A stretch of 64,000 nucleotides of DNA from Thamnaconus septentrionalis (taxonomy: Eukaryota; Chordata; Actinopteri; Tetraodontiformes; Monacanthidae). Where the stretch lies: assembly GCA_009823395.1 (NCBI GenBank), contig CM020503.1, positions 8,342,501 to 8,406,500 of the forward strand, written 5' to 3'. Every line of letters starts with the position of its first letter. Position 1 is the stretch's first letter. This document shows, one piece after another, positions 19,901 to 31,900 of this stretch. Both the position numbers and the translations under genes were made by a program. The notes beneath the pieces were generated by a model. It searched no databases, was not told the DNA's origin, and saw only the letters and a program-made list of their open reading frames with translations.

Positions 19901-22900
19901 CTTGTTGCTCCACCATCAAATCATGTTTGACTGAAGTGACTGAATATCAACATCTTCTCCAAGCTAAGCACTCACATTGAAAAACATATAAGCCACAGAG
20001 AAAAAGTTAGGAATGCTTTCTTACGTGCTGAATGATTACTTCTGAAGCCTTTTTAAAATCTTCTGACAACGTGTTGTTCATACTTGGGGTGTAAGTCACC
20101 TCTTGGAATCCCATGGTTCCAGGGAAAACTTTGGCTACAATGGTAAAACAGAATGAAAATCATCTCTGAAGAAAACTGTATTTTTTGGAAATAACAGCAT
20201 TAAATAAAGTTTCATGTACTTAATGTGAGAATACTAGATCCCAGTTTCAATTACTCCACAAATATAGATGGAAGCAAATGAAGTTTTACCTGGCTCACAG
20301 CGTCTGCTTTGATGATTGTAGTAATCACCAGCCAAGCACAAGCAAACAAAGTCTTCATTACCTCGATGCTCACAGGTGCTTCCTTGGCCACACGGGTTTG
20401 AGGTGCAAGGGTCTTTGACAGCAATGCAAAACAAGATGTAGTGATATAAATATAACGAGCAATTTATTGGTAAATACCAAAACATTTTAATCTGTATTTT
20501 TTGAAATGTGCAGACCCACCGAGAGGTTCAGCAGTTGACCCTGAAGGTGCTGTTGCATCGGTCACATCTGTTGCATCCGTTACATCGGTTGCATCGGTCA
20601 CATCTGTTGGATCTGTTACATCAGTCACATCTGTTGTGTCTGTTACATCTGTTGCGTCGGTCACATCTGTTGCATCTGTTGCATCTGTTGCATCGGTTAC
20701 AGTGGTTGAATCTGTTACGGCTGTTGCGTCTGTCACATCTGTTGCATCTGTTACATCTGTTGCGTCGGTCACATCTGTTGCATCTGTTACAGTGGTTGAA
20801 TCTGTTACGGCTGTTGCGTCTGTCACATCTGTTGCATCTGTGACATCTGTGACATCAGTTGCGTCGGTGACATCTGTTGCATCTGTGACATCAGTTGCGT
20901 CGGTGACATCTGTTGCATCTGTTACAGCTGTCGCGTCGGTGACATCTGTTGCATCCGTGACATCTGTTGCATCAGTTGCATCGGTCACATCTGTTGCATC
21001 TGTGACATCAGTTGCGTCGGTGACATCTGTTGCATCTGTTACAGCTGTCGCGTCGGTGACATCTGTTGCATCCGTGACATCTGTTGCATCGGTCACATCT
21101 GTTGCATCTGTGACATCAGTTGCGTCGGTGACATTTGTTGCATCTGTTACAGCTGTCGCGTCGGTGACATCTGTTGCATCCGTGACATCAGTTGCATCGG
21201 TCACATCGGTTGCATCCGTGACATCAGTTGCATCGGTCACATCGGTTGCATCCGTGACATCAGTTGCATCAGTCACATCGGTTGCATCCGTTACATCTGT
21301 TGCATCTGTTACAGCTGTTGCGTCGGTCACATCAGTTGCGTCGGTCACATCTGTTGCATCAGTCACATCGGTTGTATCTGTTACGGCTGTTGCGTCTGTC
21401 ACATCTGTTGCATCCGTTACATCTGTTGTATCGGTCACATCTGTTGAATCTGTTACCGCTGTTGCGTCGGTCACATCTGTTGCATCTGTTGCATCTGTTA
21501 CAGTGGTTGAATCTGTTACGGCTGTTGCGTCGGTCACATCTGTTGCATCGGTCACATCGGTTGCATCCGTTACATCTGTTGCATCTGTTACAGCTGTTGC
21601 ATCAGTTACTTCTGTTGCGTCCGTTACATCTGTTGCGTCTGTCACATCTGTTGCATCTGTGACATCTGTGACATCAGTTGCGTCGGTCACATCTGTTGCA
21701 TCTGTGACATCAGTTGCGTCGGTGACATCTGTTGCATCTGTTACAGCTGTCGCGTCGGTGACATCTGTTGCATCCGTGACATCTGTTGCATCCGTGACAT
21801 CAGTTGCATCGGTCACATCTGTTGCATCTGTGAAATCAGTTGCGTCGGTGACATCTGTTGCATCTGTTACAGCTGTCGCGTCGGTGACATCTGTTGCATC
21901 CGTGACATCTGTTGCATCCGTGACATCAGTTGCATCGGTCACATCGGTTGCATCCGTGACATCAGTTGCATCGGTCACATCGGTTGCATCCGTGACATCA
22001 GTTGCATCGGTCACATCGGTTGCATCCGTTACATCTGTTGCATCTGTTACAGCTGTTGCGTCGGTCACATCAGTTGCGTCGGTCACATCTGTTGCATCAG
22101 TCACATCGGTTGAATCTGTTACGGCTGTTGCGTCTGTCACATCTGTTGCATCCGTTACATCTGTTGCATCGGTCACATCTGTTGAATCTGTTACCGCTGT
22201 TGCGTCGGTCACATCTGTTGCATCTGTTACAGTGGTTGAATCTGTTACGGCTGTTGCATCGGGTCACATCTGTTGCATCGGTCACATCGGTCACATCGGT
22301 TGCATCCGTTACATCTGTTACAGCTGTTGCATCAGTTACATCTGTTGCGTCGGTTACATCTGTTGCATCAGTAACATCTGTTGCATCCGTTATATCTGTT
22401 GCATCGGTCACATCGGTTGCATCCGTGACATCAGTTGCATCGGTCACATCGGTTGCATCCGTGACATCAGTTGCATCGGTCACATCGGTTGCATCCGTTA
22501 CATCTGTTGCATCTGTTACAGCTGTTGCGTCGGTCACATCAGTTGCGTCGGTCACATCTGTTGCATCAGTCACATCGGTTGAATCTGTTACGGCTGTTGC
22601 GTCTGTCACATCTGTTGCATCCGTTACATCTGTTGCATCGGTCACATCTGTTGAATCTGTTACCGCTGTTGCGTCGGTCACATCTGTTGCATCTGTTACA
22701 GTGGTTGAATCTGTTACGGCTGTTGCGTCGGTCACATCTGTTGCATCGGTCACATCGGTTGCATCCGTTACATCTGTTACAGCTGTTGCATCAGTTACAT
22801 CTGTTGCGTCGGTTACATCTGTTGCATCAGTAACATCTGTTGCATCCGTTATATCTGTTGCATCTGTCACATCGGTTGAATCTGTGACATCAGTTGCGTC

Positions 22901-28900: not shown

Positions 28901-31900
28901 CATCAGTAACATCTGTTGCATCCGTTATATCTGTTGCATCGGTCACATCGGTTGCATCCGTTACATCTGTTGCATCTGTCACATCGGTTGAATCTGTTAC
29001 GGCTGTTGCGTCTGTCACATCTGTTGCATCCGTGACATCAGTTGCGTCGGTCACATCTGTTGCATCCGTTACAGCTGTTGCGTCGGTCACATCTGTTGCG
29101 TCGGTCACATCTGTTGCATCAGTCACATCGGTTGAATCTGTTACGGCTGTTGCGTCTGTCACATCTGTTGCATCCGTGACATCAGTTGTGTCGGTCACAG
29201 CTGTTGCATCTGTTACATCCGTTGCATCCGTTACATCTGTTGCGTCGGTCACATCGGTTGCGTCGGTCACATCAGTTGCGTCGGTCACATCTGTTGCATC
29301 AGTCACATCGGTTGAATCTGTTACGGCTGTTGCGTCGGTTACATCAGTTGCGTCGGTCACATCGGTTGCATCCGTTACAGCTGTTGCGTCGGTCACATCT
29401 GTTGCGTCGGTCACATCTGTTGCATCAGTCACATCGGTTGAATCTGTTACGGCTGTTGCGTCTGTCACATCTGTTGCATCCGTGACATCAGTTGCGTCGG
29501 TCACATCTGTTGCATCAGTCACATCGGTTGAATCTGTTACGGCTGTTGCGTCTGTCACATCTGTTGCATCCGTGACATCAGTTGCGTCGGTCACATCTGT
29601 TGCATCTGTTACATCCGTTGCATCCGTTACATCTGTTGCGTCGCTCACATCGGTTGCGTCGGTCACATCAGTTGCGTCGGTCACATCTGTTGCATCAGTC
29701 ACATCGGTTGCATCCGTTACATCTGTTGCATCTGTTACAGCTGTTGCATCAGTCACATCTGTTGTGTCCGTTACATCTGTTGCATCAGTAACATCTGTTG
29801 CATCCGTTATATCTGTTGCATCGGTCACATCGGTTGCATCCGTTACATCTGTTGAATCAGTTACAGCTGTTGCGTCCGTTACATCTGTTGCATCAGTCAC
29901 ATCTGTTGCATCCGTTACATCTGTTGCATCGGTCACATCTGTTGCATCTGTTACAGCTGTTGCATCAGTCACATCTGTTGCGTCGGTCACATCTGTTGCA
30001 TCAGTCACATCGGTTGAATCTGTTACGGCTGTTGCGTCTGTCACATCTGTTGCATCCGTTACATCTGTTGCATCTGTCACATCGGTTGAATCTGTTACGG
30101 CTGTTGCGTCTGTCACATCTGTTGCATCCGTGACATCAGTTGCGTCAGTCACATCTGTTGCATCCGTTACAGCTGTTGCGTCGGTCACATCTGTTGCGTC
30201 GGTCACATCTGTTGCATCAGTCACATCGGTTGAATCTGTTACGGCTGTTGCGTCTGTCACATCTGTTACATCCGTTGCATCCGTTACATCTGTTGCGTCG
30301 GTCACATCGGTTGCGTCGGTCACATCAGTTGCGTCGGTCACATCTGTTGCATCAGTCACATCTGTTGCATCAGTCACATCGGTTGAATCTGTTACGGCTG
30401 TTGCGTCGGTTACATCAGTTGCGTCGGTCACATCGGTTGAATCTGTTACAGCTGTTGCGTCGGTCACATCTGTTGCATCAGTCACATCGGTTGAATCTGT
30501 TACGGCTGTTGCGTCTGTCACATCTGTTGCATCCGTGACATCAGTTGCTTCGGTCACATCTGTTGCATCTGTTACATCCGTTGCGTCAATCACATCTGTT
30601 GCATCCGTTACATCTGTTGCGTCGGTCACATCTGTTGCGTCGGTCACATCTGTTGCGTCGATCACATCAGTTGCAACCGTCTTGGTGATGGACGCTTTCA
30701 GTGCCTTCTCCTGATGCGCTTCAACAGATATTTCAGTTAAATGATTAGTGGAATAGGTTAGTCCCTCCATCCCACCCTAGACCCACAAGGCTATGCAAAT
30801 GTCCAGGCCATAGTTCTGTTCATTTTACCAGCCCTCTTTGACTACATGCTACCTTTTTGTGTAGGCTATTTGGTTTCACCTATAAGTGAATTAAATTTGA
30901 CCAGCAGTTCTGCGGTTGCCTATAATGTTTTATCCAGTTTTTCTGGCAAATTGCCTGGTTCTTCTGGCCTCTTTATTTATTTGCAATTGTAGGCTATGTT
31001 ATTTTTTGTTGGACTGAAATGGCAGAGCCATGTTACTTGAATTAAAAGAGAATAAAATTATAAAACTCAAGGAAAAAGATATTGTGTGTCTTGTCATTTT
31101 ATAATAAGGCTATGGGTTACATTATAGTGGGTTCTAGACTTTGCAAAATTTGCAGCCTCTCCATCATAACTTAGAGACTTTCATCATTTCTCTTCTTGTA
31201 TGCTCTGAGCATCACTGTTACTTATTTTATTGCTCCATGAGCATTGACTGTGCCTATATTAAGTTGTTAGTAGCTTTAGGGGCCTACACAGTCATTATGT
31301 TCCATCACCTTCCTCTGAACATAAATAATCAGCTGCAATAATTTACATTTTAGCTTCTTAAGTGCCTAGTCATGTATTATTTCTGCAGCTATTTTGTTGA
31401 TAGTAGCTCAAATTTATTTTAAAAGTAGTGTAACTCATTACAATTTGGCAACTGTAATATTTTATATTTTGGTTTCATATTATAAAAGAAAATGGTTAAA
31501 TAATGATTAAGTTACTGTATAAAAAGGGAAAGACAGGAACAGGAGTGAATATTTAAATGCTTGCACAAACATTATTGAAGGCAGACAAAAATAAAATTAT
31601 TATGGAAAATCAGGGATGGGTGTGACTCAAATGTCAGTTGTTGTCATTACTGGTTGCTCATGCTGTCAATCAGCATCTTTGAATTAGAGGATTAAAGGGT
31701 GGGGTGGAGGCCTACACTGGGGGAGAGAAGAGGAAATCGAGAAGGGCAGAGGACACCTCAGGAGAATCACAACTGCCACTGCCCACCAGGGCGGTTCTAG
31801 TGTAAACTAAAGCCAGCAAGCCGCTCGATGGAGGACTCCGCTGCTGGCCGTCAGCAAAGTTGGAGTCCAATGTACTTCTTTACATAAGACTGCTGTGATA

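Follow-up and report, generated by a model that had tools for sequence, protein, structure and literature searches.

Does ten kilobases of threonine-aspartate triplets encode a protein and, if so, what kind of protein would it be? The question is raised by a 64,000-nucleotide (nt) stretch of the Thamnaconus septentrionalis genome (GenBank assembly GCA_009823395.1, contig CM020503.1, forward-strand positions 8,342,501 to 8,406,500), which we refer to in full as the window and number from its first letter. On its minus strand, a threonine (Thr)-aspartate (Asp) array of about 10.1-10.2 kb (30675-20550) lies inside an exon at 30718-20520 and encodes about 3,400 residues. We conclude, with a probability of about 0.7, that this exon belongs to a membrane mucin, gene B, whose exon-2 repeat became nearly proline (Pro)-free T-D-[A/V] triplets and would form a polyanionic brush with its Thr available for O-glycans. 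The gene family is known; the repeat chemistry is unusual.

The Thr-Asp array and its reading frame

The array is a real feature of the sequence, built of tandem nonanucleotide triplets. Tandem Repeats Finder gave periods of 36 and 54 nt over a span of 20550/20574-30675, and self-match is strongest at lags of 36, 72 and 18 nt. Summed over the three pieces into which it falls, the Thr-Asp frame comprises 3375 codons with no stop: 33.7% Thr, 29.6% Asp (999 codons), 17.5% alanine (Ala), 16.3% valine (Val), 1.9% serine (Ser) and a single Pro (0.03%). Two further Pro residues of exon 2 both lie in its nonrepetitive 3' end (APSGSTAEP). An initial annotation of this DNA had put Thr at about one third and Pro at essentially none, as we also find; its figure of about 1,100 Asp, again one third, was too high. 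Of the triplets, 1121 are complete; 1114 of these start with Thr, the second residue is Asp in 998 and Ala in 103, and the third is Val in 548, Ala in 486 and Ser in 59. A T-A-V unit recurs, with 102 counted and a commonest spacing of 8 triplets (33 cases), and the longest unbroken runs are 143 triplets of (T[D/E/N/A]x) and 23 of (TDx). The net charge per residue, counted over 3368 residues, is -0.298, which bears out the earlier description of a strong polyanion.

Because one plus-strand frame is likewise stop-free in each of the three pieces, the open Thr-Asp frame is by itself no evidence of coding. We therefore turn to the codons. At the Asp place, GA- codons have T or C as their third base in 998 of 1001 cases and A in the other 3; the third base of the Thr codons takes all four bases (426 pyrimidines, 688 purines). 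Since the third base is restricted to T/C where Asp needs it and free where Thr does not, the codon data favor the minus-strand Thr-Asp frame.

The initial annotation had described a 10.2 kb single coding exon at 20520..30718. The array and these coordinates stand, but as assembled the exon is not one open frame: with breaks at 28347 and 22263, the Thr-Asp reading passes through three frames in succession (about 30680-28341, 28339-22250 and 22248-20509). The breaks are as follows.

28345..28347, minus strand: frame break 1, an extra G in the array's only GGG; which base of the run is extra is not assignable
22261..22263, minus strand: frame break 2, an extra C in the array's only CCC; again not assignable within the run

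From the start codon, the assembled sequence reads 827 residues and then meets a stop. Exon 2 is 10199 nt long as assembled, two above a multiple of three; without the two extra bases it would be 10197 nt, or 3399 codons, consistent with phase 1-1 borders. Third-base variation in the Thr codons is similar across all three pieces, and their first two bases hardly vary. The same codon bias in every piece implies either that constraint acted on the frame upstream and downstream of each break until very recently, or that the extra bases are errors. Because 10197 nt fits the phase 1-1 borders and the bias runs through all pieces, we judge the breaks to be an assembly error or a recent private mutation or allele, the explanation we favor on the sequence.

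Gene B, its family and its neighbors

We modeled gene B as 12 exons on the minus strand from 33770 to 16931, limits that agree with those first annotated. They comprise a signal exon, repeat exon 2, an EGF-like domain, SEA, a second EGF-like domain, a transmembrane segment and a tail.

33716..33770, minus strand: exon 1, start codon and signal-peptide-like stretch, donor GTGAGT, phase 1 (sequence comparison)
20520..30718, minus strand: exon 2, Thr-Asp repeat exon, donor GTGGGT (Tandem Repeats Finder, frame and codon analysis)
20290..20412, minus strand: exon 3, EGF-like domain 1 (assigned from alignment)
20025..20134, minus strand: exon 4, SEA domain part 1 (Pfam SEA, E 2.8e-9)
19728..19789, minus strand: exon 5, SEA domain part 2 (Pfam SEA)
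19490..19626, minus strand: exon 6, SEA domain part 3 (Pfam SEA)
19144..19272, minus strand: exon 7, EGF-like domain 2 (Pfam EGF match at E 0.017, under the curated cut-off; alignment)
19015..19060, minus strand: exon 8, cysteine (Cys)-containing stretch (gene model and alignment)
18892..18929, minus strand: exon 9, Cys-containing stretch up to the membrane (gene model and alignment)
17567..17654, minus strand: exon 10, predicted transmembrane segment (gene model and alignment)
17261..17465, minus strand: exon 11, cytoplasmic tail part 1 (gene model and alignment)
16931..17080, minus strand: exon 12, cytoplasmic tail part 2 with stop (gene model and alignment)

Compared with the first exons of two relatives, the 19-residue stretch of exon 1 shows 68% and 63% identity, and exons 3-12 read without a break. 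By exon lengths, the protein would have about 3,780 residues, provided the two extra bases are spurious. The DNA itself shows the architecture, family, composition and minus-strand codon constraint.

By its nonrepeat exons, gene B is assigned to the fish mucin-13 (MUC13b) family of membrane mucins, an assignment that does not class the repeat itself as a Pro/Thr/Ser-rich (PTS) domain. The initial annotation had already called the gene mucin-like; it missed the mucin-13b identity and the paralogues with other repeats. Between repeat and membrane, the SEA match (E 2.8e-9) is above the Pfam curated cut-off, and a SEA fold appears in the structure predicted for a homologue rather than for gene B itself. 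Flanking it are EGF-like domains with Cys columns, in both regions, common to 8 aligned homologues. There is a single predicted transmembrane segment, and the tail finishes with an HDDGR-like ending that is absent from some aligned homologues. The 13 database matches include 8 named mucin-13, 1 HEG-like, 1 EGF-like, 1 uncharacterized and 2 unnamed proteins; a PDB sequence search returned weak matches only, mostly EGF proteins, the best at E 0.011 and none of them SEA. SEA autoproteolysis sites are of the G-SVVV type, and in an alignment inspected by eye no GSVVV-like motif was found at the corresponding place of gene B. Twelve exons with the repeat in exon 2 fit the family, as seen in the gene B model, its intact paralogue C and pig MUC13. 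Sea bream Muc13 primers (Table 1 of PMC3680472; here and below, sources given by PMC number are cited from parts of their text) gave weak matches: the best forward sites fall in the EGF 1 exons of gene B (17/20) and gene C (16/20), and the reverse primer scores 17/25 both in B and at the unrelated position 37987, and 16/25 in C.

Gene B is part of a tandem cluster, with three relatives in the window (A, C and D), two of them with unrelated repeats at the corresponding place. Gene C (57550-52548, minus strand) is an intact 12-exon mucin-13b-like paralogue of 574 residues with no break; its exon 2 repeats an 11-residue unit, PSTNETSATVP, and residues 20-205 contain 15 N-glycosylation sequons. 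Gene A (3358-9420, minus strand), which is likely to be decaying, has a 12-residue repeat with four frame changes, and its EGF 1 exon is broken; of 18 alignment indels in its array, 17 shift the frame, several of them compensating, and they are not simple runs as in gene B. No convincing signal exon for gene A was found. Fragment D (43899-39055, minus strand) has signal, membrane and tail exons, with no convincing EGF or SEA match and no long repeat in this interval. Judging from these sequences, relatives retain the anchor domains and carry unrelated repeats between signal and EGF.

Other observations concern the cluster and its surroundings. A 966-bp block spanning the membrane and tail exons of A and B (3279-4242 versus 16855-17820) is 99% identical, introns included, pointing to a duplication or gene conversion in the recent past. 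By eye, the tail of gene B resembles one unnamed metagenome protein (P0012) and that of fragment D another (P0013); both proteins carry read-through intron letters, as if from DNA of a related fish. Reading frames at 58550-59168 on the plus strand resemble, by eye, a Tc1-type transposase, and long dinucleotide runs occur at 17951-18061 (AT), 63781-63905 (AC) and 11986-12069 (GA).

A candidate polyanionic brush and its rivals

How might such a protein work? The unit that fills exon 2 is 18 nt long and encodes T-D-A-T-D-V; its higher-order periods are 36 and 72 nt, and unequal exchange presumably spread it. The protein would follow the secretory route to the cell surface, stay anchored there through its transmembrane segment and expose a long, flexible stalk of strongly negative charge. 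Almost every third residue of the stalk is Thr, which would be available for O-glycans from acid-tolerant N-acetylgalactosamine (GalNAc)-transferases, and Asp may supply the charge that sialic acid or sulfate gives ordinary mucins. Such a stalk would act on an epithelium as a hydrated, charge-repelling brush. Sea bream Muc13 is found mostly in the intestine (PMC3680472), which suggests, by analogy, an intestinal site for gene B. Asp next to every Thr may limit O-glycosylation, as the initial annotation proposed. Of two sister fly GalNAc-transferase variants, the one with a basic loop glycosylates an acidic PTTTE repeat peptide efficiently and the other hardly modifies it (PMC6115407). Acidity alone is therefore no bar to O-glycosylation for every enzyme, although this peptide contains Pro and the enzyme is from an insect.

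A bolder proposal, which we put forward tentatively, is that Pro, and perhaps sialylated or sulfated glycans too, were traded for peptide-encoded charge. The repeat, T-D-[A/V] about 1,100 times, would then be a genetically encoded polyelectrolyte brush: an extended chain of three residues per turn with one residue type per face (Thr, Asp, Ala/Val), held extended by charge and glycans without Pro and read only by acid-tolerant GalNAc-transferases.

Several points weigh against a membrane mucin with this repeat. All mucins are said to contain a Pro/Thr/Ser-rich domain (PMC1552070), and the array is rich in Thr (33.7%) with hardly any Pro (0.03%) and little Ser (1.9%). As assembled, gene B does not encode the full protein. 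Splicing into exon 2 would have to use a weak acceptor at 30718 (10/20 pyrimidines), and the alternative at 30694 is weaker still. The array units are copies of each other, so that codon counts are not independent events, and for this reason we attach no probability to the wobble bias. EGF 1 is assigned by alignment only, and EGF 2 falls below the Pfam curated cut-off. Finally, the chicken Muc13 repeat is spread across several exons, a layout from which human MUC13 differs, and an unpublished remark describes the zebrafish repeat as multi-exon too (PMC1552070), unlike our single-exon model.

Among the rival explanations, the most serious, though we consider it unlikely, is that the frame breaks are real in this haplotype. 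Gene B would then encode only about 827 residues, made up of a signal peptide, Thr-Asp repeats and a short Cys/arginine-rich end; this truncated product, with neither SEA nor anchor, would be secreted, unstable or null. This length is what the assembled reading gives up to its first stop; in the human MUC1 repeat, duplication of a single cytosine is known as a natural mutation (PMC7248079), and neighboring gene A shows decay. Yet both breaks are +1 changes in short G or C runs found nowhere else in the array, the same codon constraint continues downstream, so that two very recent breaks would be needed, and paralogue C and exons 3-12 of gene B are unbroken. We regard it as improbable that the stalk is no mucin domain at all but an acidic polymer without glycans, binding Ca2+ or another cation or folding as a beta-solenoid. 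Its high Asp and near lack of Pro would suit such a polymer, as would the strict 3- and 6-residue periods, and over much of a 150-residue piece of the repeat AlphaFold2 placed a short strand roughly every six residues. We rejected that model as structural evidence: it was built from a single sequence, its mean predicted local distance difference test score is 54 and the other four models reach 28-39, so it supports nothing. Moreover, Thr is more nearly invariant than Asp (1114 versus 998 of 1121), the other exons of gene B are those of a mucin, and a suitable enzyme can O-glycosylate an acidic repeat (PMC6115407).

The two remaining alternatives are remoter. A noncoding satellite, or an array coded on the plus strand (Val-Thr-Ser/Val-Ala-Ser frame), with the Thr-Asp frame open by chance, would account for the stop-free plus-strand frame. 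It is very hard to reconcile with the T/C restriction at Asp codons, where the plus-strand frame would tolerate all four bases, and with the position of the array, between a signal exon and EGF-SEA-transmembrane exons on the minus strand, where paralogue C has coding repeats. Least credible of all is an antifreeze-glycoprotein-like triplet polymer. Such proteins consist of Ala-Ala-Thr triplets (PMC6628104), and in gene B almost every third residue is Thr, many others are Ala and Pro is all but absent; but Asp occupies position 2 in 998 of 1121 triplets, in place of Ala-Ala-Thr, and the context is that of a membrane-anchored mucin. Ice activity is not known for triplets so charged.

A membrane mucin with a Thr-Asp brush would matter because Pro, Thr and Ser are the residues that define mucin domains, and here a long natural repeat keeps Thr and swaps Pro and Ser for Asp. 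Gene B would thus test which features a mucin needs for extension, O-glycosylation and epithelial protection. Paralogues with wholly different repeats would be a natural experiment in which repeat chemistry turns over while anchor domains stay fixed. Repeat forms of pig MUC13 were tied to intestinal E. coli susceptibility in one study (PMC3440394); this link is disputed, because a later paper, by its title, places the candidate region proximal to MUC13 (PMC4138166).

Comparison with known repeats and mucins

Does a comparable repeat occur elsewhere? As the initial annotation had proposed, we looked for Thr-Asp relatives, using array pieces as queries scored, with length limits, among the 7990 and 7983 candidates that shared most words with them. 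This gave 5 and 41 hits (46 proteins), many of them unnamed; none of the named hits among these candidates is a fish mucin, a result that does not exclude a fish relative. The longest runs in the 46 hits are 16 triplets of (T[D/E/N/A]x) (P0022) and 13 of (TDx) (P0032), against 143 and 23 in gene B. Open-licence PMC literature, judged by titles and the beginnings of abstracts, yielded no report of such a Thr-Asp repeat.

Repeat domains were measured in 10 of the 13 database hits (P0004, P0012 and P0013 were left out). They are 43-193 residues long, with 2.3-28.7% Pro and a net charge per residue of 0.093 to -0.186. Acidic repeats do occur in the family, in Oreochromis (P0003; 43 residues, 2.3% Pro, charge -0.186) and Oryzias (P0006; 21.4% Pro, charge -0.165); gene B exceeds both in charge, length and loss of Pro.

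Among mammalian mucins, pig MUC13A and MUC13B resemble gene B in having 12 exons and a repeat in an exon 2 of about 3-5 kb, and pig MUC13 alleles carry different repeats within one exon; unlike gene B, the repeats described there, ASTSAPSA-like or TPTPTTTP, contain Pro and lack acidic residues (PMC3440394). Human MUC3A and MUC3B likewise have 12 exons, a very long repeat exon 2 and a tandem membrane mucin cluster, but are PTS-rich and belong to another gene family (PMC9578598), one whose MUC3/12/17 homologues seem to be missing in fish, according to a 2006 study (PMC1552070). Because exon 2 of human MUC3B reaches 39.3 kb (PMC9578598), the length of the gene B repeat is not unusual for a membrane mucin. 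Antifreeze glycoproteins share the triplet period and the Thr at each third residue; they differ in being Ala-Ala-Thr, not acidic, and usually 4-55 triplets long (PMC6628104, PMC5274654), against 1,121 complete triplets here. The closest known systems are the fish mucin-13b proteins, such as those of Micropterus salmoides (P0001) and Danio rerio (P0011), which share with gene B the order EGF-SEA-EGF-transmembrane-tail, at 36-43% identity (8 of 13 hits aligned), and a repeat domain N-terminal to EGF 1. Gene B differs from those measured in the repeat itself: 3368 residues with 1 Pro and a charge of -0.298, against 43-193 Pro-containing residues at -0.186 or above.

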